A stretch of 53,732 nucleotides of DNA. Origin: Deinococcales bacterium (GTDB lineage Bacteria; Deinococcota; Deinococci; Deinococcales; Trueperaceae). Location: NCBI GenBank assembly GCA_012515535.1, contig JAAYYF010000003.1:1-53732 (forward strand). Direction: 5' to 3'. This document shows positions 8,362 through 46,724 of the stretch, piece after piece. The notes under the pieces were generated by a model that ran no database searches, was not told where the DNA came from, and was given only the letters and a program-made list of their open reading frames with translations. The position numbers and the translations under genes were made by a program. How positions within the stretch are numbered: the stretch's first letter is position 1; the number at the start of each line of letters is the position of its first letter.

Positions 8362-9423
8362 GTGCCGAAACGCCTCCCGCGCGCGCTCCTGAGAGAGACG
8401 GCCGGCCTCTACCCGCTGGGGGTGGCGGCAATCTGCCTGCTCCTCTCCGTCGACCTGTTGAGCGTGCTCGCCAGGTTCCTGGTCGAGCAGGGCGCCACGC
8501 TGGCGGACGTGCTCAGCCTCCTCCTCTACCGCCTCCCCTGGTTCCTGCACCTGGCGCTGCCGGTGGCGGTGGTGTTCGCCGTGCTGCTGGCCGCCGGGCG
8601 CATGGCCAAGGACAGCGAGCTGAAGGCGGCGTACGCGCTCGGCGTGCCGCCCGCCGCCATGCTCGCCCCGCTGGTGGGCTTCGGGCTGGTGGTCGGCGCC
8701 CTGTCGTTCGTCAACAACGGCTTCCTGGAGGCGCGCGGCGAGGCCGCCTACCAGCGGCGCATCGACGCCTTCATCTACGCGCGCCCGCCGGCCGAGCTGC
8801 AGCTGAACGCCGCCTACCGCATCGGCGAGAGCATCTTCTTCGCCTCGCGCGTGCGCTCGGTGGCCGACGACGCCCGCCTGGCGAACCTCGAGGGGGTGCT
8901 GGTGGTGGAGCCGGACGGCACCCTCCACGCCGCGCGCGACGGGCGCTGGGACGCCGCCGCCCGCGTGTGGGTGCTGAACGACGTCGAGTCGAGCCGGCCC
9001 GGCGAGGCGCCCACGCAGCGGGGGCAGCTGACGCTACCGTTCGAGCTCGAGGCCACCCCCGACGAGACGCTCACGCGCGCCGCCGAGCTGCCGCTCGACC
9101 AGCTGGTGCGGCGCCTGGAGGTGGTGGCGGCCGCCGGCGGCGACGTCGGCGAGCTGCGCTTCAGCCTCCACCGGCGCCTGGCCGACGCCTTCAGCGCCGC
9201 CATCTTCGCCGTCTTCGCGGGCGCCATCGCGCTGCGCGTGCGCGGGCGCGCCGCCGGCTTCGCCTGGACCATCGTGCTGCTGGTGGGCTTCTGGGCGGTG
9301 TGGGTGCTGTCCGGCAACCTGTTCGAGAGCGGCGCGGTGAGCGCCATCGCCGCCGCCTGGCTCACCCCCGGCCTCGCCGCCGCGGGCGCCGCCCTGCTGG
9401 CGTGGCGGACGCTGGCGTCATGA
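8362..9423 (+). CDS. lptF: LptF/LptG family permease (first copy)
   Basis: A 353-residue inner-membrane protein of the LptF/LptG (YjgP/YjgQ) family. It has three hydrophobic segments at the N-terminus (about 18-38, 58-80, 100-122), a periplasmic region of about 150 residues, and three more helices at the C-terminus. In the Lpt machine two such permeases with the LptB ATPase extract lipid from the inner membrane for delivery to LptD. GTG at 8362 is chosen because TATACT ends exactly six bases before it and residue 1 fits the family. The following permease overlaps by four bases (ATGA). No lptB, lptA or lptC gene is in the window. Confidence 0.88.
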   Translation: MPKRLPRALLRETAGLYPLGVAAICLLLSVDLLSVLARFLVEQGATLADVLSLLLYRLPWFLHLALPVAVVFAVLLAAGRMAKDSELKAAYALGVPPAAMLAPLVGFGLVVGALSFVNNGFLEARGEAAYQRRIDAFIYARPPAELQLNAAYRIGESIFFASRVRSVADDARLANLEGVLVVEPDGTLHAARDGRWDAAARVWVLNDVESSRPGEAPTQRGQLTLPFELEATPDETLTRAAELPLDQLVRRLEVVAAAGGDVGELRFSLHRRLADAFSAAIFAVFAGAIALRVRGRAAGFAWTIVLLVGFWAVWVLSGNLFESGAVSAIAAAWLTPGLAAAGAALLAWRTLAS

Positions 9424-10490
9424 CCCGCTGGGGGCGCTACCTGATCCGCGGCACGCTGCCGCTGCTAGCCGCCGGCCTCGTGTCGCTGGTGCTGCTGCTG
9501 CTCCTCTACTTCCTGCTCGACGTGCTGGCCGACGTGCTGGCGCGCGGCGCGCCCGTGGGCCTGGTGGCGCGCTACCTGCTCTTCAAGCTGCCCACGGCCG
9601 TCGGGCCCGGCCTGCCGCTGGCGCTGCTGTTCGCCTCGCTGCTCACCCTCACGCGCCTCGGCCAGGACGGCGAGATCAAGGCCGCGCTGCTGGCGGGCGT
9701 GGGCCCGAGCCGCTTCGTGCTGCCGTACCTCGCCCTCGGCCTGGCGGTGAGCGCCGTCGCCCTCCTCAACAACGAGCTCCTCGTACCGTGGGGCGAGCGA
9801 CGCGCGGCGGAGGTCGAGAAGGACATCCTGCTGCTCTCGCCCGAGACCATCGTGCAGGAGGGATCGTTCTTCGAGGACGCCCTCGGGAGGAGCATCTTCA
9901 TCGGCGAGGTGAACGCCCAGGGGGAGTTCCGCGACGTCACGGTGATCACGCCGGGCAGCGCCACCGGCCCCCGCGAGCTGCTGCGCGCCGGGGTGGGGCG
10001 CCCCGACCCGGGGGCGGGCGTGTGGCGCCTGGAGGACATCGGCTTCCGGGTGCTGCGCGACGGCCGCCTCACGCTCGACTTCCGCGCCGAGACCGCGGTG
10101 CTGCCGGTGCGCGGCCTCACGGCGCGCAGCCCGGCGGCGCCCGACCTGGCCTACCTGCCGCTGCGCGAGCTGCTGGCGCGCCTGCGGCTCGACCCCGGCA
10201 GCCCCAAGCCGGCCGAGTGGACGGCGCTGCACCGCAAGGCGGCCGAGCCGCTGGCGGCCACCGCCTTCGCGCTGTTCGCCGTGGCGGTGGGGTTGTTCAC
10301 CTTCCGGCGCGGGGCGCAGCTGGGCTTCGTGGCGGTGCTGTTCCTGACGTTCGTCTACTACGCCACCTGGAGCGTGAGCAAGCTGCTCGGCGCCCAGGGC
10401 ACGCTGCCCGCCTGGCTGGCGGCCTGGCTGCCGGTGGGCGTCTACCTGCTGGCGGCCGCGGCGCTACTCCTGGCCGCCCGGAGGCGCTAG
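9420..10490 (+). CDS. lptG: LptF/LptG family permease (second copy)
   Basis: A 356-residue second member of the LptF/G family, with the same plan of three helices, a periplasmic beta-jellyroll-like domain (about 120-255) and three helices. Family-typical features include [18 protein letters not shown] and [19 protein letters not shown]. The ATG overlaps the lptF stop. Which of the two corresponds to LptF and which to LptG is assigned by order only. The pair most likely forms the heterodimeric permease whose product is passed to the LptD-like protein encoded next, three bases downstream. Confidence 0.87.
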
Positions 10491-10493
10491 CCG

Positions 10494-13409
10494 GTGAGGG
10501 GCGCCGCGGCCGTGTGGCGGGCCGTCGTGGCGCTGCTGGCGCTGGCCGCGACCACCGGCGCCCTCGCCGCCCGCATCGGCATCGACGCCAGCTCCGACCC
10601 CGAGAGCCGCCTCGAGATCCGCACCGTGCGCCTGCCGGGCGGCGAGGAGGTGCAGCTCTACGTCCTGCGCGGCGAGGGGCTGCGCATCACCATCGACGAC
10701 GCCCTGCTCGAGGCCGACCACGTCGAGGTCGACCTCACCAACCGCCTGGTGCGGGTGATCGGCCCGGGGCGCTACAGCTCGGGCAGCGAGGTGGTGGCGG
10801 GCGACGACCTGATCATCGACCTGCGCGACGAGAGCTTCGCCGGCGACGACGTGCTGATCGTCACCGAGGCCATCGACGTGACCGGCGACCGCGCCAGCCG
10901 CGTGCCGGGCCTGATCCGCGTGGCCATGGGGCGCTTCAGCCCCTGCACGCGCTGCGGCCAGGACGTGGAGGACTACGGCTTCGCCGCCGACCGCCTGGAG
11001 ATCTTCCCCGGCGACCGGCTGGTGGCCTACGACGTCACGGTGCTGATCCGCGGCGCGGCGATCATGACGCTGCCGATCATGGTGCTGCCGATCGGCCCCC
11101 AGGACCGCCAGCCGCGCTTCGAGCTCGTCACCGGCACCGTGACCGACCGCGCGCGCATCACCCTCGGCTGGCCGTACGTGGCCGGCCCGGACGCCTACGG
11201 CGACGTGGGCCTGCGCTACTACGCCGACGTGCAGCCGGGCGCCTCGCAGGTGGGCGACCTGCTGCTGGGCGGCGCGGTGCTGCGCAGCTACGTGGGCGGC
11301 TTCCTCGACCACCGCTTCTACACCGAGCGCGGCAAGGGCCGCTTCGCGGTCGACTACACCCCGGCGTTCCACACCCCGAGCGGGCCCACCGAGCGGCTGT
11401 TCGCGGTGCGCTTCGCCTACGCCGACGAGGAGGTGCTGGGCACGCCGCTCACCACGCTGCTGGTCGAGCGCGACGACGAGCGCCGGCTGCGCCTGTGGGA
11501 GGCGAGCCTCAGCCACCTCTCGGTGGCCTACGGGGTGCGCGGCGCCTTCACGAGCCAGGTCTTCCTCGACCTCGACCCCACCGACGACGTCGCCACCCCG
11601 AGCTACGCCAGCCGCAGCGTGCCGCTCATGACCATCGCCCGCCTGCAGCTCGAGCCGGAGGAGCTGCGCACCCTCGACCTGGGCGCCCTGCGCGTCGAGC
11701 GGCTCCTGCTCGACCTGGGCGTGTTCCAGGACCGCAGCAACTCCATCAACCGCTCGGCGGCGCTCACCCCCGAGGTCACCGCCGGCCGCGCGGTGGAGGC
11801 GCACACCCTGGCGCTGCGGCCGCTGCAGCTCTGGAGCGGCGCCACGCTGGAAGGGCGCACGGCGTTCACCGGCTACTACTACACGACCGCCGAGCGCCAG
11901 GTGGAGTGGCTCACCAGCCTCACGGCCCGGCAGCGCTTCTGGGACGTGGGCGGCCTGTCGCTCACCTTCACGCGCGACGTGCGCGAGGGCGAGACCCCCT
12001 TCCGCTTCGACCTGTTCCCCTACCGCAGCAGCACCGACGTGCGCGGCGACCTGCGCCTCGACCCCTGGCCGTGGCTGCGCTTCCAGCAGTCGGGCGGTTA
12101 CGTGTTCTTCGACGACCGCAACCCCGGCGACGTGGGCTGGCTGCCGCTGGTGAGCACCGCCACGCTGTTCGGCGACCTCGACTGGCTGACGCTGACGCTG
12201 CGCAACGAGTACGACCTCGAGGACGGCGACCCCGGCTCGCTCGAGGCGACCTTGGAGCTGCGCTCGCGCGGCACGTTCTCGGGGAGCGTGAAGCTCACGC
12301 ACGCCCAGGACCTGTCCGTGCGCCCCGACCGGCTGACCGGCGCGCCGCGCGACACCACCCAGACGGCGGTCGAGGCGTCGGCGGCCGTGACGGGCGTCGT
12401 GGAGCTGCGGGTGAGCACCGCCTACCGCTACGACCCCCCGCTGGCCGCCCCCGGCGAGCCGCCCGACCACTGGGACGACCTGAGCGTGCGCCTCACGCTC
12501 GGCACGCTGCGCCACGACGACGCCACCCCGGGCCTGGCCCTGACCTACGCCCGCGACCTGGACGCCGGCCAGGTGAGCGCCTTCGAGGTGGCGGCCGCCG
12601 CGACCCTCGGGCCCCTGGAGCTCGACGCCACGGAGCGACTGTCGCTCCCCACCGGGCGCCTGTCGCGCAGCCAGCTGCGCCTCGCCTGGCCCGGGGTGGC
12701 GGCGCTGCAGGCCGACGGCCTCGTGTGGCTGCCCACCGAGTGGCTGGGCCTCCCCCAGCCCGAGCCGTACGCGCGCAACCTGGCCTTCACCCTCGAGCAG
12801 GCGCCCGAGCGCGGCAGCGCCACCTGGCAGGTGCGCTACACCACCCGCGTCGACCCGGCGCTGGGCCCGCCCGACGGCTTCGGCTACCGCAACTCGACCC
12901 TCACCGGGCGCGTGCTGCTCGACGACCGCACCGTGGGCCCCGCGCGCTTCAGCGTCGACGGCTTCGCCGAGCTCCTGTGGCACGACGACGTGCAGCCCAG
13001 CACCTACCTGCGGCGCGCCAACCTGCGCTTCGGCGTCGACCTCTACGAGCGCGTGGGCCTGCAGGGCACCATCGGCTACAGCGGCCAGTACGACCTGGCC
13101 GCCGCGGAGGTGACGAGCGGGCGCCTGAGCCTGCAGGAGGTGGCGCTGGTGGTGCGGCCGCTCGACACGCTCTACCTGGGGGCGGTCGTCACCGACGTCT
13201 GGGACCTGACCGGTAACGATCCCAACCAGCCCGCCTTCAACCTGCAGCCCACCTTCGTGGTGGTGTGGAACCGCTGCTGCTGGGCGCTCTACGGCTCGTG
13301 GAACAGCGCCAACGGCGACCTCGCCATCACCCTCACCACGCCGGGAGCCGACCAGGGCGTCGGCAACGTGTTCGACACCGGCTGGATCATCCCCCGGAGG
13401 CAGCCATGA
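10494..13409 (+). CDS. lptD: LptD-like outer-membrane assembly protein
   Basis: A 971-residue protein starting with GTG three bases after lptG. It has a signal peptide (about 1-25), an N-terminal OstA/LptA-like beta region (about 30-190: repeated DDALLEADHVEVD, VVAGDDLIIDLRDE) and then a long region of alternating beta strands suggesting a barrel. LptD signatures are visible. CTRC at 151-154 is followed by DYGFAADRLEIFPGDRLVAYDV and a PIMVLPI segment. An adjacent Cys pair lies at 928-929 within WNRCCWALYG near the C-terminus. In E. coli LptD, disulfides between N-terminal cysteines and the CC pair are needed for function. The cargo here is unknown and need not be classical LPS. Confidence 0.82.
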   Translation: MRGAAAVWRAVVALLALAATTGALAARIGIDASSDPESRLEIRTVRLPGGEEVQLYVLRGEGLRITIDDALLEADHVEVDLTNRLVRVIGPGRYSSGSEVVAGDDLIIDLRDESFAGDDVLIVTEAIDVTGDRASRVPGLIRVAMGRFSPCTRCGQDVEDYGFAADRLEIFPGDRLVAYDVTVLIRGAAIMTLPIMVLPIGPQDRQPRFELVTGTVTDRARITLGWPYVAGPDAYGDVGLRYYADVQPGASQVGDLLLGGAVLRSYVGGFLDHRFYTERGKGRFAVDYTPAFHTPSGPTERLFAVRFAYADEEVLGTPLTTLLVERDDERRLRLWEASLSHLSVAYGVRGAFTSQVFLDLDPTDDVATPSYASRSVPLMTIARLQLEPEELRTLDLGALRVERLLLDLGVFQDRSNSINRSAALTPEVTAGRAVEAHTLALRPLQLWSGATLEGRTAFTGYYYTTAERQVEWLTSLTARQRFWDVGGLSLTFTRDVREGETPFRFDLFPYRSSTDVRGDLRLDPWPWLRFQQSGGYVFFDDRNPGDVGWLPLVSTATLFGDLDWLTLTLRNEYDLEDGDPGSLEATLELRSRGTFSGSVKLTHAQDLSVRPDRLTGAPRDTTQTAVEASAAVTGVVELRVSTAYRYDPPLAAPGEPPDHWDDLSVRLTLGTLRHDDATPGLALTYARDLDAGQVSAFEVAAAATLGPLELDATERLSLPTGRLSRSQLRLAWPGVAALQADGLVWLPTEWLGLPQPEPYARNLAFTLEQAPERGSATWQVRYTTRVDPALGPPDGFGYRNSTLTGRVLLDDRTVGPARFSVDGFAELLWHDDVQPSTYLRRANLRFGVDLYERVGLQGTIGYSGQYDLAAAEVTSGRLSLQEVALVVRPLDTLYLGAVVTDVWDLTGNDPNQPAFNLQPTFVVVWNRCCWALYGSWNSANGDLAITLTTPGADQGVGNVFDTGWIIPRRQP

Positions 13410-38331: not shown

Positions 38332-38429
38332 GGCGCCGGGGCGCGTGTGGAGGCGCGCCCCTCACGCGGGGGGTGCGCCCGGTGCCCCGAATGCCGTCTT
38401 TTTACGCTCGCGACGGCGCGCGACTTTGG

Positions 38430-38435
38430 TACATT
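38430..38435 (+). promoter_or_regulatory. -10 element of the LysM/M23 peptidase gene
   Basis: TACATT in an AT-richer patch, eight bases before the ATG at 38444. TTTACG at 38401 is too far to be a standard -35. Confidence 0.58.
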
Positions 38436-38443
38436 TGACCGCG

Positions 38444-39610
38444 ATGCCGCCCTCGTCCGTCACCCGCGCCCTGATCGGGCTCATCGTCGCGTCCCTCTGC
38501 GCGGGGGCGTTCGCACAGAACATCATCGTCCAACAAGGCGACTCGCTCTGGAGCCTGGCCCGCAAGCACGGCACCGACGTGGCCACGCTGCGCGAGCTGA
38601 ACGGCCTGCAGAGCGACACGCTGCGGGTCGGCCAGACGCTGCGCCTACCGGGCGACGGCGACGCGGCGCCCGCGACCACCGTCACCGTGCGCCCCGGCGA
38701 CACGCTCTTCGAGATCGCCCTGGCTCACGGCCTCACGGTCGAGGACCTCATCGCCTTCAACGACCTCGACGGCACCACCATCCACCCGGGCCAGGAGCTG
38801 CGCCTCGCCGCCGGCGACGCGGCGCCGGAGCCGCTGGTCGTCACCATCGGCTTCGGCGACTCGCTGTGGGTGCTGGCGCGGCGCTACGACTCGACCATCG
38901 ACGCCATCGCCGCCGCCAACGGCATCGACCGCAGCGCCACGCTGCGCGTCGGCGACAGGCTGACCATCCCAGGCCGCTACGCCGCCAACGACCTCGACGT
39001 GGGCGGTCCGGCGCCGGTCGAGGTGGTCGTCGAGCGCGGCGACACCCTCTGGTCGATCGCGCAGCGCCACGGCAGCGACGTCTCGGCCCTCATGAGCGCC
39101 AACAACCTGACCTCGTCGCGGCTGCACGTGGGCCAGCGCCTGCGCATCGTGCCGGGCGAGGAGGTGCGCGCCACGCGCGCCGCCGAGCCCACCCCGCTGC
39201 ATGCCCACCACCACGACGCCCCCATGGTGTGGCCGTTGAGCGGCCTCATCACCTCGCGCTACGGCTACCGCCAGCTGCGCGTCAGCGGCTCGAACTTCCA
39301 CACCGGCCTCGACATCGACGGCGACACCGGCGACCCCATCGTGGCGGCCGTCGGCGGCACCGTGACCTTCTCCGGCTGGCGCGGGGGTTACGGCTACCTG
39401 GTCGTCGTGACGCAGGACAACGTCGACTACTACTACGCGCACGCCTCCGAGCTGCTGGTGCAGGAGGGCGACACGGTGGTGGCCGGCCAGCTGATCGCGC
39501 GCGTCGGCAACACGGGCAACTCGACCGGCTCCCACCTGCACTTCGAGGTGCGCGTGGACGGCCAGCCCGTCGACCCGCTGCCGATCCTCGAGTCGACCGC
39601 GGTCCGCTGA
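38444..39610 (+). CDS. LysM-repeat M23 family metallopeptidase
   Basis: A 388-residue secreted cell-wall protein. A signal peptide (1-24, ending AFAQ) is followed by four LysM modules starting near 28, 80, 132 and 192, each with GDSLW/GDTL and a closing VGQxLRI-type motif; these bind peptidoglycan. The C-terminal 125 residues are an M23 (LytM/NlpD-like) domain with H286 and D290 in HTGLDID, H333, and H364/H366 in HLHFEV. The zinc ligands are complete, so it is probably an active endopeptidase rather than an NlpD-type activator. The ATG is chosen for the signal peptide and the TACATT upstream. A metallophosphatase gene follows 27 bases later. Confidence 0.93.
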   Translation: MPPSSVTRALIGLIVASLCAGAFAQNIIVQQGDSLWSLARKHGTDVATLRELNGLQSDTLRVGQTLRLPGDGDAAPATTVTVRPGDTLFEIALAHGLTVEDLIAFNDLDGTTIHPGQELRLAAGDAAPEPLVVTIGFGDSLWVLARRYDSTIDAIAAANGIDRSATLRVGDRLTIPGRYAANDLDVGGPAPVEVVVERGDTLWSIAQRHGSDVSALMSANNLTSSRLHVGQRLRIVPGEEVRATRAAEPTPLHAHHHDAPMVWPLSGLITSRYGYRQLRVSGSNFHTGLDIDGDTGDPIVAAVGGTVTFSGWRGGYGYLVVVTQDNVDYYYAHASELLVQEGDTVVAGQLIARVGNTGNSTGSHLHFEVRVDGQPVDPLPILESTAVR

Positions 39611-39637
39611 GCCGCAGCCGCAGGGCGGGAGCCTCCC

Positions 39638-40429
39638 TTGCTACGCCTCGTCGTCATCGGCGACATCCACGTCCAGGCCGGTAAGCTCTGGCGCATGCTC
39701 CGCGAGGCGGGGCTCGCCGACGAGCAGAACCGCCCCACCGACGCCCTGCGCGACGGCAGCACACGCCTGGTGCTGCTCGGCGACCTGGTGCACCCCAAGA
39801 GCCGCGAGCGCTACGCCGACCTCGTCAACGTGCGCCGCTACGACGAGTACAACCCGCGCCACCTCGAGCGCGCCGAGCAGGCGCAGGAGCGCTTCCTCAG
39901 GGAGGTCAAGGGCTTCGCCGACCGCGTGCCCGACGGCAACATGACCATCCTCATGGGCAACCACGACTACAACGCCGTCACCCCCGACCAGGGCCCGCTG
40001 CGCACCGACGACGTGTCGCACCTCGAGTGGAAGCCCGGCTACGGCAACGAGCTCGACCCCGCGCTGCGCGACTGGATCCTCACCTGGCCCTTCGAGCTGG
40101 CGGTCGAGGGGCTGCACCTGGCGCACGTGGGGCCGCTGCCCGAGCACAACACCTTCGACCAGGCGTTCTACCTCGAGAACCGCCGCCGCTGGCTGCAAGA
40201 GGACCGCGACTTCATCGAGGGCACCCCCTACCGCCTGGGCGTGTACGGGCACACGCCGGTGCGCGGCGGCGTCAACGTGGCGTCGCAGGGGCGCGCGCTG
40301 CTCCTCGACACCAACGGTCACCTGGACGAGTACGCCTGGCTGGAGGTCGAGATCCGCGACGACAGCTACCGGCTGAAGCTGCACGGGAACTTCTTCGACG
40401 AGATCATGCCGCGTGAGGCGGAGGGGTGA
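39638..40429 (+). CDS. Calcineurin-like metallophosphoesterase
   Basis: A 263-residue metallophosphoesterase. The di-metal centre motifs are GDIH (D9, H11), GDLVH (D49), GNHD (N108, H109), a later His in LAHVGPLPEH, and YGHTPVRGG. Such proteins hydrolyse phosphoproteins, nucleotides or diadenosine tetraphosphate; the substrate is open. TTG is chosen as start because GGGAG lies six bases upstream and the conserved first strand LRLVVIGDIH follows directly. Probably co-transcribed with the LysM peptidase. It ends just before the long inverted repeat. Confidence 0.85.
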   Translation: MLRLVVIGDIHVQAGKLWRMLREAGLADEQNRPTDALRDGSTRLVLLGDLVHPKSRERYADLVNVRRYDEYNPRHLERAEQAQERFLREVKGFADRVPDGNMTILMGNHDYNAVTPDQGPLRTDDVSHLEWKPGYGNELDPALRDWILTWPFELAVEGLHLAHVGPLPEHNTFDQAFYLENRRRWLQEDRDFIEGTPYRLGVYGHTPVRGGVNVASQGRALLLDTNGHLDEYAWLEVEIRDDSYRLKLHGNFFDEIMPREAEG

Positions 40430-40601: not shown

Positions 40602-42653
40602 TCAGCGCTCGACGCGCGTGTCGTACGTGGGCGTCAGCATCACCCACGTGCGGTAGGGCGCCAGGTCGACCAGCTCGCCGTCCGCCGTGCGGAAGCGGAT
40701 GCCGTCGCCGTCGCTCACCAGCCAGCTGCCGCGCACCGCGCGCCCGCGCAGGTAGAGGGTAGCGTCGCCGCCGTCGAGCGGGATGTACAGGCGCCCCGCG
40801 GTGTCGCCGGGCTGCAGGCGGGCGGTGATCTCGCCCACCAGCACCGCGTCCATCAGCACGATCTGGCCGTCGGGGTGGTTGGCGGGCTCGCCGTCGCGCA
40901 CCCAGCGGTAGGCGCCCAGGGCGCTGTCGTAGCGGAAGCCCGAGCCGTAAGCGCCGCTGTAGCGCACCTGCACCTCGCTGACCGTGCGCGCGCCGTCGCC
41001 GGGGGCGAACACGGTGCCGGTCACGATGCGTCCGTCGCCCGGCAGCATGCGCGCCACGGCGCTCCGCAGGTCGGTGCCGAGGCTGTAGAGGTTGTAGGGC
41101 GCCGAGCGCTCGCCGGCGCGCGCGAAGAGCTGGCCGCTGCTGTAGGCGTTGAGCGTCGGCACGCTGGAGGCGCCGATGGCGATCATGGCGCCCGGCGAGC
41201 CGCCGTCGTGGACCAGCACCGCGGAGCTGCGCTCGGCGAGCTGCACGAAGTAGTCGCGCGCGCTGCGCACCGGGCCCACGCGCTCGGGGTCGGTGCGGTC
41301 GTAGATGGTCATCAGGCGCGTGAGGCCGCCCTCGACCGGCATCTCGACGATCATGCTGGCCTCGCGCAGCCCGTGCTGCGGGTAGCCCCCCACGTTGTCG
41401 AGCAGCACCGCCAGCGGCTGCTCGCGGCGCGTCGAGAAGGGCGGGCGCGAGGGCTGCGGCGGCGCGCCGGTGCCCTCCCCCACCCCGTCGGGGCCGGCGG
41501 CGCGGCCGCGGCCCGCCGCGGTGGCGAGCGGGTCGAGGGGGCCGGTCTGGCCGGCGGTGGCGGCGTTGCCGCCGGGCTGGCGCGGCGAGATGGTGGTGGC
41601 CTCGACGTCGGTGGCGCCGGTGGCGCGGCCGTCGTCGGTCGGCGCGCCGGCCTGGGCCGCGGGCGCCAGCACCTCGGCGCGCAGCGTGGGGAGGGGCACG
41701 TCGCGCACCTGCGCCACCTGCGCCTGCGGGGTGACGGCCACGTCGCGGCGGCTGCCCACCAGGGCGCTGACCGCCGGCGGCGCCAGCGGGGTGTGGCCCG
41801 ACACCGCGGCCTGGACGCCGCTGGAGCTCAGGTCGACGGCGCCGGCCACCTGGGCCTGCACCCCGGGCGCCTCGAGCTGGCGCGCCGGGGCCACCGAGGC
41901 CGTGGCGTTGGGCGCCGCCAGGCCGGTGGACTGCGCCACGGCGGCGCTCGCCTGCGGCACCTCCAGCGGCCGGCTCTCGGCCACGGCGGCGCTGGGCTGC
42001 GGCGCGCTGAGCTCGCGCGCCTCGCTGACGTTGGCGCTCGGCTGCATGGCGACGGCGCGGGCCTCGCTCACCTCCGCGCGCGCCTGCGGGCGCGGGATGG
42101 AGATGGGGTCGGCCAGCGGGCGCGGGTCGAGCGCCACCGGGTCGATCTCGGGCAGGGTGGTGGCGGGCACCTCGGCCAGGGGCAGCGGCTCCTCGAGCGG
42201 CGCGGCCTCCGCCACCTGCGGCTGCGGCAGCGGCGGGGCGGGCACCTCGGCGGCCTCGGCCGGCTCGGGCGGCGCCGCGGCGGCCTCGGCGGGCGGCGCG
42301 GCGGGGGCGGGCGGCTGCGCCGTGACCTGCGCCTCCTCGGGCGCGGTGGTGGCCTGCTCGGGGGCGGCCAGCTCGCGCGGGTCGCCGATCTCGGTGCTGG
42401 CCACCTGCGGCTCGGGCGCCGGCAGCGCCGGCTCCTCCGCGGTGGGCGCCTGCACGCTCTCCTCGGCGTGCGCCGGCGTGCCCACGTCGATGACGATGTA
42501 GGCCGGCAACGGCTCGGGGCGGGGCACGAGGCTGGCGACGAGCAGCAGCAGGAAGACGAGCAGGTGCAGCACCACCGACAGCGCCATGGCGCGACGCTTG
42601 TCGGGGTCGTTCCAGAAGGCGGCGAGCGCGCCACTACGCGCGTTGCGGTTCAC
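40602..42653 (-). CDS. TonB-type membrane anchor fused to a DUF3048 domain
   Basis: A 683-residue protein from GTG at 42653, chosen because AGGAGG lies five bases upstream; an in-frame GTG at 42686 overlaps exbD and has no such site. A short cytoplasmic tail leads to one membrane helix (22-43) with S26 and H30, the SxxxH motif that lets TonB engage ExbB/ExbD. A periplasmic Pro/Ala/Glu-rich stretch (48-180) and about nine 15-residue repeats (189-334) follow. The end (about 412-683) is a DUF3048 (YerB-like) region with VEGGLTR, GPVRSARDYF and VLVHDGGSPGA. There is no TonB C-terminal domain. It is the last gene of the exbB-exbD operon. Function unknown. Confidence 0.8.
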   Translation of the reverse strand: MNRNARSGALAAFWNDPDKRRAMALSVVLHLLVFLLLLVASLVPRPEPLPAYIVIDVGTPAHAEESVQAPTAEEPALPAPEPQVASTEIGDPRELAAPEQATTAPEEAQVTAQPPAPAAPPAEAAAAPPEPAEAAEVPAPPLPQPQVAEAAPLEEPLPLAEVPATTLPEIDPVALDPRPLADPISIPRPQARAEVSEARAVAMQPSANVSEARELSAPQPSAAVAESRPLEVPQASAAVAQSTGLAAPNATASVAPARQLEAPGVQAQVAGAVDLSSSGVQAAVSGHTPLAPPAVSALVGSRRDVAVTPQAQVAQVRDVPLPTLRAEVLAPAAQAGAPTDDGRATGATDVEATTISPRQPGGNAATAGQTGPLDPLATAAGRGRAAGPDGVGEGTGAPPQPSRPPFSTRREQPLAVLLDNVGGYPQHGLREASMIVEMPVEGGLTRLMTIYDRTDPERVGPVRSARDYFVQLAERSSAVLVHDGGSPGAMIAIGASSVPTLNAYSSGQLFARAGERSAPYNLYSLGTDLRSAVARMLPGDGRIVTGTVFAPGDGARTVSEVQVRYSGAYGSGFRYDSALGAYRWVRDGEPANHPDGQIVLMDAVLVGEITARLQPGDTAGRLYIPLDGGDATLYLRGRAVRGSWLVSDGDGIRFRTADGELVDLAPYRTWVMLTPTYDTRVER
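41652..42089 (-). repeat. Tandem degenerate 45-base (15-residue) coding repeats
   Basis: About nine consecutive units of 15 codons inside the TonB-like gene. The consensus is roughly Q-x-S-A-x-V-(S/A)-E-(A/S)-R-x-L-x-x-P, as in QPSANVSEARELSAP and QPSAAVAESRPLEVP. Later units drift but keep the Val and the Leu/Pro positions. The period is constant, which argues for repeated duplication rather than simple compositional bias. Confidence 0.7.
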
Positions 42654-42678
42654 GACGTCCTCCTGCACCCGTCCAGCC

Positions 42679-43086
42679 TCAGCCACCCGTGGCGATCACG
42701 ATGCGTTGCGCGCCGCCCTGCGTGAGCAGGTCCATGATGCGCACCGCGGTGCCGTGGGGCACGTCGCGGTCGGCGCGCAGCACCACCGTGGTCTGGCCGG
42801 TGGCGTCGAGCTCCTGCCGCAGCAGCAGCGCGAGCTGCGCCTCCGACACCTGCGCGCCGCCGAAGAAGACGGCGCCCTCCTTGTTCACGGTCACGGTGGG
42901 CAGGTTCGACGGCTCCGCCACGGTGGTCTGGGTGTCGGGCAGCTCCACCGGCAGCCCCGACTCCAGGGTGATGAAGGTGGTCGAGACCATGAAGAAGATG
43001 ATCAGCAGGAACACCACGTCGACCATCGGGGTGAGGTCCAGCCCCGGGGTGGCGGCGAGGCGCTTGCGGGCTCGGCTGACGCGCAT
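42679..43086 (-). CDS. exbD: ExbD/TolR family protein
   Basis: A 135-residue proton-channel subunit. A single membrane helix (about 22-42) carries the essential Asp at residue 23 (LTPMVDVVFLLIIFFMVS), matching Asp23/Asp25 of TolR/ExbD. The periplasmic domain has QTTVVLRADRDVPHGTAVRIMD, typical of the family. It lies six bases after exbB. ExbB/ExbD or TolQ/TolR assignment cannot be fixed from these subunits alone; no tolA, tolB or pal gene is present, and the following gene has a TonB-like helix. Confidence 0.92.
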   Translation of the reverse strand: MRVSRARKRLAATPGLDLTPMVDVVFLLIIFFMVSTTFITLESGLPVELPDTQTTVAEPSNLPTVTVNKEGAVFFGGAQVSEAQLALLLRQELDATGQTTVVLRADRDVPHGTAVRIMDLLTQGGAQRIVIATGG

Positions 43087-43092
43087 GCCGGC

Positions 43093-43818
43093 TCAGCCCT
43101 GGGGCAGCGGCCGGGCGTCGACCCGCGGGCCGCCGCGTTCGGCGCGCGCCTCGGCGGCCGCGCCCTCGGCGCCGGCGGCGCGCGCGCCGCCCTCCTCGCG
43201 CCGGCTGGCCACCGCCTGCACCACGTTGCCCATCAGTTCCTCGCGGCGGCGGTCGATCTCGTTGAGCACCTTCTCGACCTTGCTGGTGAGGTAGCCGTGC
43301 GCCACCAGCACGGGGATGGCCACGATCAGGCCGGCGGCGGTGGTCACGAGCGCCTGACCGATGCCGGTGGCCAGCAGGGCGGGGTCGCCGCTGCCGTGGC
43401 GCGCGATCTCGGAGAAGGAGATGATCATGCCGGTGACGGTGCCGAGCAGGCCTAGCATCGGCGAGATCTGCGCGATGATCGCCAGCGGGCGCAGCCCGCG
43501 CGTGAGGTTCTGCTCCTCGAGCAGCGTGGCCTCCTCGAACGCCGCCTCCACGGCCGGGCGTCCGTACGGCAGGCGCTCCAGGGCGGCGCTCAGCACGCGC
43601 GCCACGGGCCCGTCCTGGGCCTCGGTGGCCGCGAGCGCCCCTTCCAGGTCGCGCTCGCGCACGGCGGCGTTCACCCGCGCCATCAGGGCGCTGGAGTCCA
43701 CCTGCTCGCGGCGGAGCTTCAGGAAACGTTCGAAGAAGACGTAGACGGCGAAGACCGAGATCAGGATGATCGCGACCAGTACCGGTCCGCCGCTAGCCAA
43801 GAGTTCGGTGAAGGTCAT
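43093..43818 (-). CDS. exbB: ExbB/TolQ family proton channel protein
   Basis: A 241-residue inner-membrane protein of the MotA/TolQ/ExbB family. It has one N-terminal helix (13-32, GPVLVAIILISVFAVYVFF), a cytoplasmic loop with helical segments, and two closing helices: LGLLGTVTGMIISF and TTAAGLIVAIPVLVAHGYL. Pentamers of this protein form the proton channel that drives TonB-like partners. The last 40 residues are a charged Ala/Gly-rich tail not common in the family. GAGGAG lies six bases upstream of the ATG. A classical -35/-10 promoter is present upstream. Confidence 0.92.
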   Translation of the reverse strand: MTFTELLASGGPVLVAIILISVFAVYVFFERFLKLRREQVDSSALMARVNAAVRERDLEGALAATEAQDGPVARVLSAALERLPYGRPAVEAAFEEATLLEEQNLTRGLRPLAIIAQISPMLGLLGTVTGMIISFSEIARHGSGDPALLATGIGQALVTTAAGLIVAIPVLVAHGYLTSKVEKVLNEIDRRREELMGNVVQAVASRREEGGARAAGAEGAAAEARAERGGPRVDARPLPQG

Positions 43819-43988: not shown

Positions 43989-46724
43989 TCAGCCCGTGTT
44001 GCGGAGCCCGGCCGACACCCCCGTCAGCGACAGGCGGACGGCGTAGTCGAGCCCCTCGCGCTCCGGCGCGCCCTCGGGCGTGGCGCGCAGGCGCCTCAGC
44101 AGCTCGACCTGCAGGCGGCTGATGGGGTCTACGTAGGGGTTGCGCAGCTCGATGGTGCGCTTCAGCACGGGGTCGCCCGCCAGGAGCGGCGCGCCGGTGA
44201 CGGCCTCCACCCGCTCGACCGCCACCCGGAAGCGGCGCTGCACCTCCTCGCCGAGCGGCCGCAGGCGCGGCTCCACCAGCTCGAGGTAGGAGCCGAAGAC
44301 GCCCATGTCGGCCTTGGCCAGGCTCATCTGCGCGAAGTCGAGCATGGTGCGGAAGAACGGCCACTCGCGGTACATCTCGGCGGCCAGCTCGCTGCCGACG
44401 GCCTCCAGGGCGGCTCCCACGCCGTACCAGCCGGGCACGTTGGCGCGGCACTGCGTCCAGGCGAACACCCACGGGATGGCGCGCAAGCCGGCCACCGAGC
44501 GGTCGCTGCCGCGGCGGGTGGGGCGCGAGCCGAGGTTGAGGCGCCCCAGCTCGAGGATGGGCGTGACCTGCTCGAAGAGGTCGACGAACGCCTCGTGGTG
44601 CACGAGCGCGTGGTAGGTGGCCATGCCGGCGCGCGCGGCCTCGTCCATCGCCTGGCGGTAGCGCGGCTCCACCTCCGGTAGCGGCCCCTCGTCGCGCGCC
44701 GAGGCGAGCAGGACGGCGTGCAGCACCTGCTCCAGGTGGCGGTGGGCCAGGGCGGGGTCGCGGTAGCGGTCGGCGAGCGCCTCGCCCTGCTCGGTGGTGC
44801 GCATGCGGCCCGCCAGGCTCCCGGGCGGCTGCGCCAGGATCGCCTGCCCCGCCGGCCCCCCGCCGCGGCCGATGCTGGTCCCGCGCCCGTGGAAGATCCG
44901 CAGCGGCACGCCCGCCGCGCGGCACACCGCCGCCAGCCCCTCCTGCGCCCGGTAGAGCGCCCAGGTGGCGGCCACGAAGCCGGCGTCCTTGTTGGAGTCG
45001 GAGTAGCCGATCATCACCTCCTGGACCCCGCGCCGCGCCACGTGGGCGCGGTACGGCTGCAGCGCGAACAGCTGCGCCAGCACCTCGGGGGCGCGCTCCA
45101 GGTCGTCGAGCGTCTCGAACAGCGGCGTGGCGTCGATCGCCTCCACCCCGGCCTCCTTCGCCAGCAGCAGCGCCTCCAGGACGTCGGAGGCGCCCTCGGT
45201 CATGCTGACGATGGTGCTGCCGATGGCGTCCTCGCCGTACGCCGCGCGGGCGCGGCGCAGCTCCTCGAGGAAGGCCAGCGCGCGCCCGGCCGCCTCCCCG
45301 GGGCTGGCGTGGCGCGGCAGCAGCGGCCGCGGCGAGGCGAGCTCGCGCGCCAGGAGCTCCACGCGCGCCGCCTCCGGGAGCGCGGCGTAGTCCGGGTGGA
45401 CGCCCGCCAGCGCCAGCAGGTCGGCGACCGCGCGCTCGTGCTGGCGCGAGTGCTCGCGCACGTCGAGCGGCGCCAGCGCGAAGCCGAAGGCGGCCGCGCG
45501 CACCGCCGCGGGCCGCACGAAGGCGCGCGCGGGCCGCGCACCGCCGCTCGCCTCCAGGGCGCGCTCGAGGAGCTCGAGGTCGGCGAGGTAGCCGGCGCCG
45601 CCGCCCGGGTAGCTGCCGGCGCGCGCGGCCTCCGCCGTCAGGAGCCGGTGGGTCAGCTCGAGCCAGCGCCGGTACGGCTCGCCCGGGAAGCGCGGGCCGG
45701 CCCCCAGCTCGGCCTCGCGGCGCGCCAGCGCCGCGCTCAGCTCGGGCGGGGCGGGCGCGCGCCGCTCCCACTGCGACAGGCGCTGCACCAGGTCGTCGAC
45801 GTCCGCCAGGTAGGCGCGGTTGGCCACCTCCGCCTGCAGGCGGTAGGCCTCGCGCGTCACCTCGGGCGTCACGAACGGGTTGCCGTCGCGGTCGCCGCCG
45901 ATCCACGAGCGGAAGCGCACGAGCGGCGGCAGGGCGCTCGGCCCGGCGCCCTGGTCCCGCTCGCCGGCGGGCGCCGGGAAGTACGTCTCCAGCGCCCACT
46001 CGAGGTCGCGCATCAGCGCCGGCACCACCTCCAGCAGCGTGCGGCGGAAGTAGTAGAGCGCGCTCTTGACCTCGTCGAGCACCGAGGGGCGCGCGTCGTC
46101 GACCTCCCGCGTGTGCCACAGGGTGGCGATCTCGGCGTAGATGGTCTCGCGCAGCCGGCGCGCCTCGCGCGGCGGCAGCGCGCGCTCGCCGAGCTGCGTG
46201 ACGGCGGCGGCGACGCGCTCCAGCTTGAGCCTGACGGTGTAGCGCTTCACCTCGGTGGGGTGAGCGGTGAGCGTCAGCTGCAGGTCGACGCCTGCCAGGA
46301 AGGCGAGCGCGCGCTCGCGGCTCCAGCCGCGGTCCTTGAGCGCCTTGACGGCGGCCGCCAGGCTCTCGCGCCGCGGCTCCTCGGGGGTGGCGGAGAGCGA
46401 GCGCAGGCGGTTGACGCGCACGCGGTGCACCTCCTCGGCCAGGTTCACGAGCTGGAAGTAGACGGTGAACGCCCGCACCAGCCGCTCGGCGTCCTCGGTG
46501 GAGGCGGCGCGCAGGAGGCCGCTCAGCTCGCGCTCGGCGGCGGCGTCGCCAGGCACCTCGCGCAGGCGCTTGGTGAGGCGGCGCACCCGCTCCACGAGCT
46601 CGAAGAACGGCTCCCCCTCCAGCTCACGCAGCACGTCGCCCAGCGCGGTGGCGAGGAAGTCGACGTCGGCGCTCAGCAGCTCGAACTCGCTCGTGTCCAC
46701 CTCGCCACCTCGCGCGCCTCCCAC
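43989..46724 (-). CDS. ppc: Phosphoenolpyruvate carboxylase
   Basis: A 911-residue enzyme that carboxylates phosphoenolpyruvate to oxaloacetate. Signature stretches are present: LTLTAHPTEVKR near 152 with the catalytic His, GGDRDGNPFVT, GYSDSNKDAGFVAATW, FHGRGTSIGRGGGP, and the C-terminal SAGLRNTG. The GTG at 46724 has GAGGGG seven bases upstream, which includes the ymdB stop region, so it is translated after ymdB with a gap of four bases. GTG at 46700 is an alternative. It replenishes the TCA cycle; an allosteric Asp/aspartate site is expected but was not examined in detail. Confidence 0.96.
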   Translation of the reverse strand: MGGARGGEVDTSEFELLSADVDFLATALGDVLRELEGEPFFELVERVRRLTKRLREVPGDAAAERELSGLLRAASTEDAERLVRAFTVYFQLVNLAEEVHRVRVNRLRSLSATPEEPRRESLAAAVKALKDRGWSRERALAFLAGVDLQLTLTAHPTEVKRYTVRLKLERVAAAVTQLGERALPPREARRLRETIYAEIATLWHTREVDDARPSVLDEVKSALYYFRRTLLEVVPALMRDLEWALETYFPAPAGERDQGAGPSALPPLVRFRSWIGGDRDGNPFVTPEVTREAYRLQAEVANRAYLADVDDLVQRLSQWERRAPAPPELSAALARREAELGAGPRFPGEPYRRWLELTHRLLTAEAARAGSYPGGGAGYLADLELLERALEASGGARPARAFVRPAAVRAAAFGFALAPLDVREHSRQHERAVADLLALAGVHPDYAALPEAARVELLARELASPRPLLPRHASPGEAAGRALAFLEELRRARAAYGEDAIGSTIVSMTEGASDVLEALLLAKEAGVEAIDATPLFETLDDLERAPEVLAQLFALQPYRAHVARRGVQEVMIGYSDSNKDAGFVAATWALYRAQEGLAAVCRAAGVPLRIFHGRGTSIGRGGGPAGQAILAQPPGSLAGRMRTTEQGEALADRYRDPALAHRHLEQVLHAVLLASARDEGPLPEVEPRYRQAMDEAARAGMATYHALVHHEAFVDLFEQVTPILELGRLNLGSRPTRRGSDRSVAGLRAIPWVFAWTQCRANVPGWYGVGAALEAVGSELAAEMYREWPFFRTMLDFAQMSLAKADMGVFGSYLELVEPRLRPLGEEVQRRFRVAVERVEAVTGAPLLAGDPVLKRTIELRNPYVDPISRLQVELLRRLRATPEGAPEREGLDYAVRLSLTGVSAGLRNTG

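Follow-up and report, generated by a model that had tools for sequence, protein, structure and literature searches.

Organization of the exbB-exbD-DUF3048 locus

We report that a 53,732-nucleotide stretch of a Trueperaceae genome (Deinococcota; contig JAAYYF010000003.1 of assembly GCA_012515535.1), the whole of which is referred to as the window, carries at positions 40602-43818 a minus-strand unit of three genes: exbB, exbD and a gene for a TonB-like force transducer that ends in a DUF3048 (YerB) domain (Table 1). This operon joins two questions, the function of DUF3048/YerB and the task of ExbBD in Deinococcota without TonB-dependent receptors.

The original prediction, made from the letters of the sequence, had described the third gene as a TonB-type anchor with S26 and H30 in its membrane helix, a Pro/Ala-rich linker and a DUF3048 end instead of the TonB C-terminal domain, and these features are all borne out. 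ExbB and ExbD match their Pfam profiles (MotA_ExbB and ExbD) and the transducer has a single N-terminal helix without the lipobox that is usual for the Bacillota members of the DUF3048 family. The numbering of S26 and H30 is exact, and with L37 and S41 they make up a complete Ser-x3-His-x6-Leu-x3-Ser (SHLS) motif, the motor-binding motif as defined in PMC12215075. The linker of about 355 residues consists of 23.7% Ala and 16.6% Pro (composition of residues 46-400). TonB_C is absent from the protein, and the genome search returned neither TonB_C nor a TonB-dependent receptor, while exbD and DUF3048 are each present in a single copy. For the transducer, the GTG start at 42653 was preferred over 42686 of the open reading frame (ORF) list.

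Table 1. Positions of the operon, its ribosome-binding site and the parts of the transducer (window coordinates)
Feature	Position	Strand	Evidence
exbB, proton-channel subunit, 241 amino acids	43093..43818	-	PF01618 2.6e-30
exbD, 135 amino acids, D23 within transmembrane helix	42679..43086	-	PF02472 3.5e-31
TonB-like force transducer with DUF3048 C-terminus, 683 amino acids	40602..42653	-	stop at 40602
AGGAGG ribosome-binding site, 5 bases 5' of GTG 42653	42659..42664	-	sequence
N-terminal transmembrane helix, residues 22-44, SHLS motif at 42531-42578	42522..42590	-	
Ala/Pro-rich periplasmic linker, residues 45-405	41439..42521	-	composition
15-residue linker repeats, ~10 copies, residues 191-340	41634..42083	-	autocorrelation
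DUF3048 N-terminal domain (PF11258), residues 409-534	41052..41429	-	5e-32
DUF3048 C-terminal domain (PF17479), residues 561-671	40641..40973	-	3.9e-10

The repeats in the linker have a consensus resembling SAxVAxARxLxxPxx and the V/I/L autocorrelation at lag 15 is 0.25, a value reached by 0 of 300 shuffles. A periodicity at lag 15 (or 29) is present in most linkers of the Trueperaceae family and not in those of the second DUF3048-bearing Deinococcota family. The repeats may give this part of the linker the structure of a stalk instead of leaving it a disordered tether.

The DUF3048 end has the YerB fold

The end was predicted to be DUF3048, and both of its parts score well above the Pfam cut-off of 25 bits (111.5 bits for PF11258 and 40.5 bits for PF17479); the sequence of YerB (2psb) matches the same region at 4.7e-25. 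The structure predicted for residues 405-683 (predicted local distance difference test, pLDDT, 95.3; predicted template modelling score, pTM, 0.93) has the YerB fold. B. subtilis YerB (2psb) is the only solved structure that it matches (E 1.1e-25, template modelling score 0.87), the next match having E 0.06, and no vWA fold was found.

Across an alignment of 103 DUF3048 domains from five phyla, N420, E437, E441, R446, G460, P461, R463, R466, Y468, G637, W644 and W670 show little or no variation, though for some of them conservation is overstated because the sequences were retrieved with two motifs that include them; N420, E437, Y582, W644 and W670 are outside this bias. The polar residues among them (N420, E437, E441, R446, R463, R466 and Y468) are the same in YerB, and the pattern fits a putative binding or catalytic pocket that is unchanged between free and motor-linked DUF3048. 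A close-sequence scan of viral contigs revealed no relative of the domain.

The operon recurs in Deinococcota

Among 111 Deinococcota genomes, DUF3048 was detected in 43, confined to two families. In 40 stretches around it, exbB and exbD immediately precede the gene on the same strand wherever the contig reaches that far. The cases without upstream exbBD are contigs that start inside or just before the DUF3048 gene and one extra copy. All 32 readable transducer N-termini of the Trueperaceae family have SxxxH; given this and the exbB-exbD pair immediately in front, chance can be ruled out. The extra copy (L066:3089-4711, minus strand, G080:C109) is a second DUF3048 gene in a genome of the Trueperaceae family and lies behind a trypsin-like (HtrA-type) protease; in this protease-DUF3048 fusion a signal-peptide-like start replaces the SHLS helix and some of the linker is kept.

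ExbD was found in 56 of the 111 genomes, one copy each. TonB_C and TonB-dependent receptors are present in a single draft genome of the Trueperaceae family (G076), which has neither exbD nor DUF3048; the contigs that carry them (L101-L103; G076:C176 and G076:C302) are probably foreign, so this genome is not taken as a counterexample. In the window's own genome, where exbD has one copy and neither TonB_C nor receptors are present, the single ExbBD motor thus has no visible output besides the DUF3048 arm. In the two DUF3048-bearing families and in Atribacterota (see below), which share this three-gene unit, the motor very probably has a task other than receptor-mediated nutrient uptake.

Three further Deinococcota families have, after exbB-exbD, a gene for a helix that mostly keeps SxxxH, a low-complexity linker and another end domain. 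This alternative end (L218-L232) comprises about 110 residues with two invariant Cys, and its profile matched 14 genomes, none of which has DUF3048. Searches of Pfam, NCBIfam, PDB sequences and Foldseek (model pLDDT 89) gave no match for it, and an LPP20-like identity, our first guess, was dropped because all four fail to place the domain. Given that the same helix and linker carry unrelated ends, the motor and arm look like a chassis with exchangeable non-TonB outputs. That the ends are exchanged from one Deinococcota family to another suggests a modular design of ion-driven ExbBD motors, with further outputs yet to be discovered.

Atribacterota and other phyla

DUF3048/YerB occurs widely among Bacillota and Patescibacteria. 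In a wider scan covering one genome per GTDB species, we studied the best 80 loci (more matched), among which exbB, exbD and a helix-linker-DUF3048 gene form one run at 6/6 Atribacteria loci. The predicted co-occurrence of the fusion with exbBD hence extends from nearly every DUF3048-bearing Deinococcota locus to these six. A test of whether the fusions of Deinococcota and Atribacteria arose only once gave an approximately unbiased (AU) p of 0.525, and we therefore claim neither convergence nor common descent. In Atribacteria lgt is the next gene in two loci, and murA lies downstream within the fetched stretch in 3/6. The operon is there headed by a gene for a TPR protein roughly 1000 residues long (L129:35-3262 and equivalents); a TPR gene is also found beside vWA transducers (PMC12204202).

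At the remaining 68 non-Deinococcota loci, exbBD was not found within the fetched flanks (0/68). The DUF3048 proteins of these loci, mostly from Bacillota and Patescibacteria, are free lipoproteins or have a single transmembrane segment, as the original prediction had it when stating that DUF3048 proteins are usually separate. Moreover, in two Halanaerobiales genomes, which served as control, exbD lies beside a classical TonB_C gene and the DUF3048 protein is encoded elsewhere, unlinked.

In most of the Patescibacteria loci found (L130-L203) the DUF3048 gene is located between ftsW/rodA, the ribosomal L25 gene and either murA or a gene resembling prmC. Counted over 22 Patescibacteria-type loci, free DUF3048 has ftsW/rodA nearby in 18 and murA in 6. 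In Clostridia it belongs to a gene run from a pgpH-like 7TM-HD gene to cdd and era (the latter two named by inspection). Furthermore, yerB appears in sporulation gene lists (PMC3416734, PMC4433262) and is counted among Spo0A-linked sporulation-core genes (PMC3416734).

A proposed proton-driven arm and its alternatives

We propose that ExbB-ExbD would be a proton-driven motor and the third protein its force-transducing arm: the SHLS helix at the N-terminus would dock on ExbB, the long linker would cross the periplasm, and the DUF3048 tip would engage a target not used by TonB or TolA. Proton flow would then move or pull the tip, which would grip and let go of, or mobilise, some wall or outer-membrane component. 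We favour with reasonable confidence a motor with a DUF3048-tipped arm that serves Tol-like maintenance of the wall and outer membrane rather than uptake. This reading is preferred because the operon recurs, the docking helix and the channel and Asp residues are kept, there is one motor per genome, TonB_C and TonB-dependent receptors are absent, the end domain is swapped in sister families, the invariant polar residues are those of YerB, and wall genes neighbour free DUF3048 and, in part, the Atribacteria operon. That the helix docks and force is transmitted seems to us highly likely, whereas a target in the wall or outer membrane, as opposed to a transporter, has only an even or slightly better chance. 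Since DUF3048 is present in monoderms, its ligand does not have to be a receptor of the outer membrane. The version that we prefer, at roughly equal chances of being right or wrong, is that a wall ligand is used to exert force where wall and outer membrane meet.

As to the motor itself, the channel threonines (T148 and T181 of E. coli ExbB) are conserved in 47/47 aligned related ExbBs, and the ExbD Asp motif is retained in 35/35 relatives. The numbering follows what we take to be the E. coli ExbB sequence, whose S34, W38 and P190 agree with PMC12215075. The original prediction had expected a structure prediction to place the helix with S26/H30 at the ExbD Asp23; here we depart from it, as cryo-electron microscopy shows that TonB S16/H20 contact ExbB S34/W38 instead (PMC12215075). 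Judged from the residues, docking of the helix on ExbB is likely, and least sure in the second DUF3048-bearing family.

Several observations weigh against the proposed arm. The position of ExbB W38, a partner of His20 in E. coli, is occupied by V, L or A, and in the second DUF3048-bearing Deinococcota family the motif His is missing and A/S-x3-T/S is found instead, so that coupling in this family either depends on a different contact or is lost; the ExbB of this family has Thr at the Ser34 equivalent of other ExbBs. Atribacteria transducers have SxxxN in 6/6; this constancy counts in favour of the arm, but SxxxH is accordingly not universal. Relatives lacking the SxxxH helix and the exbBD neighbours, or a failing DUF3048 match, had been named in the original prediction as what would speak against it: the His is indeed lacking in some relatives (A/S-x3-T/S, SxxxN), but the DUF3048 match and the exbBD neighbours hold. 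In addition, the link between DUF3048 and the wall comes from gene neighbourhoods alone, and the genes next to the operon in Trueperaceae (PEP, phosphoenolpyruvate, carboxylase, LysM-M23 and phosphoesterase) give little direct hint at its role.

The main competing explanation is that DUF3048 is an enzyme, a hydrolase or transferase acting on peptidoglycan or a wall polymer, which the motor positions or switches on. The invariant polar N/E/E/R/R/R/Y cluster, typical of a catalytic or binding pocket, speaks for it, as do the ftsW/rodA and murA neighbourhoods and the place of yerB in the Spo0A-linked sporulation core (PMC3416734). However, the fold resembles no other solved protein, no report of DUF3048 activity was found in the literature searched, and for some residues of the cluster the apparent conservation is biased by the two scan motifs, so that we give this explanation about one third of the weight of the proposed arm. 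ExbBD-TonB classically serves uptake, and DUF3048 could have replaced the TonB end to open an outer-membrane channel for iron, cobalamin or another nutrient; as TonB-dependent receptors are absent in Deinococcota, this channel would have to be of another kind. In monoderms DUF3048 keeps the same invariant residues although these cells lack an outer membrane, neither a transporter gene nor a porin gene was noticed next to the operon of Trueperaceae or that of Atribacteria, and one Atribacteria genome has, besides its DUF3048 motor operon, a separate exbD-TonB_C-TonB-dependent receptor cluster, all of which makes uptake unlikely.

Marginally less probable still is that the motor does not act on the DUF3048 protein: this would be a wall protein tethered to the membrane and only co-transcribed with exbBD, while the motor works by itself or with another partner. 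This would agree with the membrane-anchored single DUF3048 proteins of other phyla and with the absence of the motif His in one Deinococcota family. It is difficult to reconcile with SxxxH/N being kept in 38 sequences, mostly across unrelated end domains too, with an exbB-exbD-arm order conserved over great distances, and with a genome that has no TonB_C protein to act as alternative partner. Finally, an artefact of assembly or gene model might be suspected in a draft genome of 189 contigs; the ORF is free of stops and dozens of genomes, including several assembled as a single contig, have the same architecture, which refutes this and leaves it a negligible probability.

Coming back to the proton-driven arm, a broader and more tentative idea, to which we give somewhat less than even chances, is that ExbBD is a general drive with plug-in ends where TonB-dependent receptors and (if confirmed) Tol-Pal are absent. 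The plug-in of Trueperaceae-type Deinococcota and Atribacterota would then be DUF3048, an old lipoprotein module of the cell wall, and would work the junction between peptidoglycan and outer membrane as Tol-Pal does, with a separate origin. If true, this would show as well what DUF3048 does in Gram-positive bacteria.

Comparison with known systems

The system shares with E. coli TonB-ExbB-ExbD the two motor proteins, the full-SHLS helix, a long Pro-rich linker and a periplasmic C-terminal globular domain; it differs in that DUF3048 replaces TonB_C (PF03544), the linker has about 355 residues and the genome encodes no TonB-dependent receptor. With TolA-TolQ-TolR (Tol-Pal) it has the motor family, SHLS helix and linker in common, but the TolA end domain is lacking and the tolA, tolQ and tolR models score far below their cut-offs. 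Specifically, transducer residues 20-127 weakly match NCBIfam tolA (7e-6, 25.5 bits against a cut-off of 59.45), a match that spans the helix and early linker only. YerB/DUF3048 lipoproteins (Bacillus, 2psb) have both DUF3048 domains, the fold and the invariant residues, whereas they are free lipoproteins or single-transmembrane proteins with no exbBD alongside.

The original prediction knew of no described system of this form. This has to be narrowed, as transducers with an SHLS helix, a disordered linker and a non-TonB globular end of vWA fold, likewise adjoining an ExbBD/TolQR-type motor, were described in 2025 (Williams-Jones et al. 2025, PMC12204202). The present end is in contrast DUF3048 with the YerB fold, and the hosts are Deinococcota and Atribacterota; neither "DUF" nor "Deinococc-" occurs in the main text of that paper. 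No DUF3048-ended transducer was found in the literature on DUF3048, yerB and Truepera/Atribacter with TonB, a coverage that leaves out most subscription papers. Motor-driven non-TonB ends as such are thus already known, and DUF3048 as one of them appears to be undescribed.

Other genes in the window

Elsewhere in the window, at 8967-13409, an LptF/LptG-type permease gene is followed by a putative ORF of about 970 amino acids with no Pfam match at 1e-4. Beside the operon (window 38345-40429 and 43989-46724) there are convergent genes for a LysM-M23 peptidase and a metallophosphoesterase, with a PEP carboxylase gene upstream; the positions of these three are kept in many loci of the Trueperaceae family.

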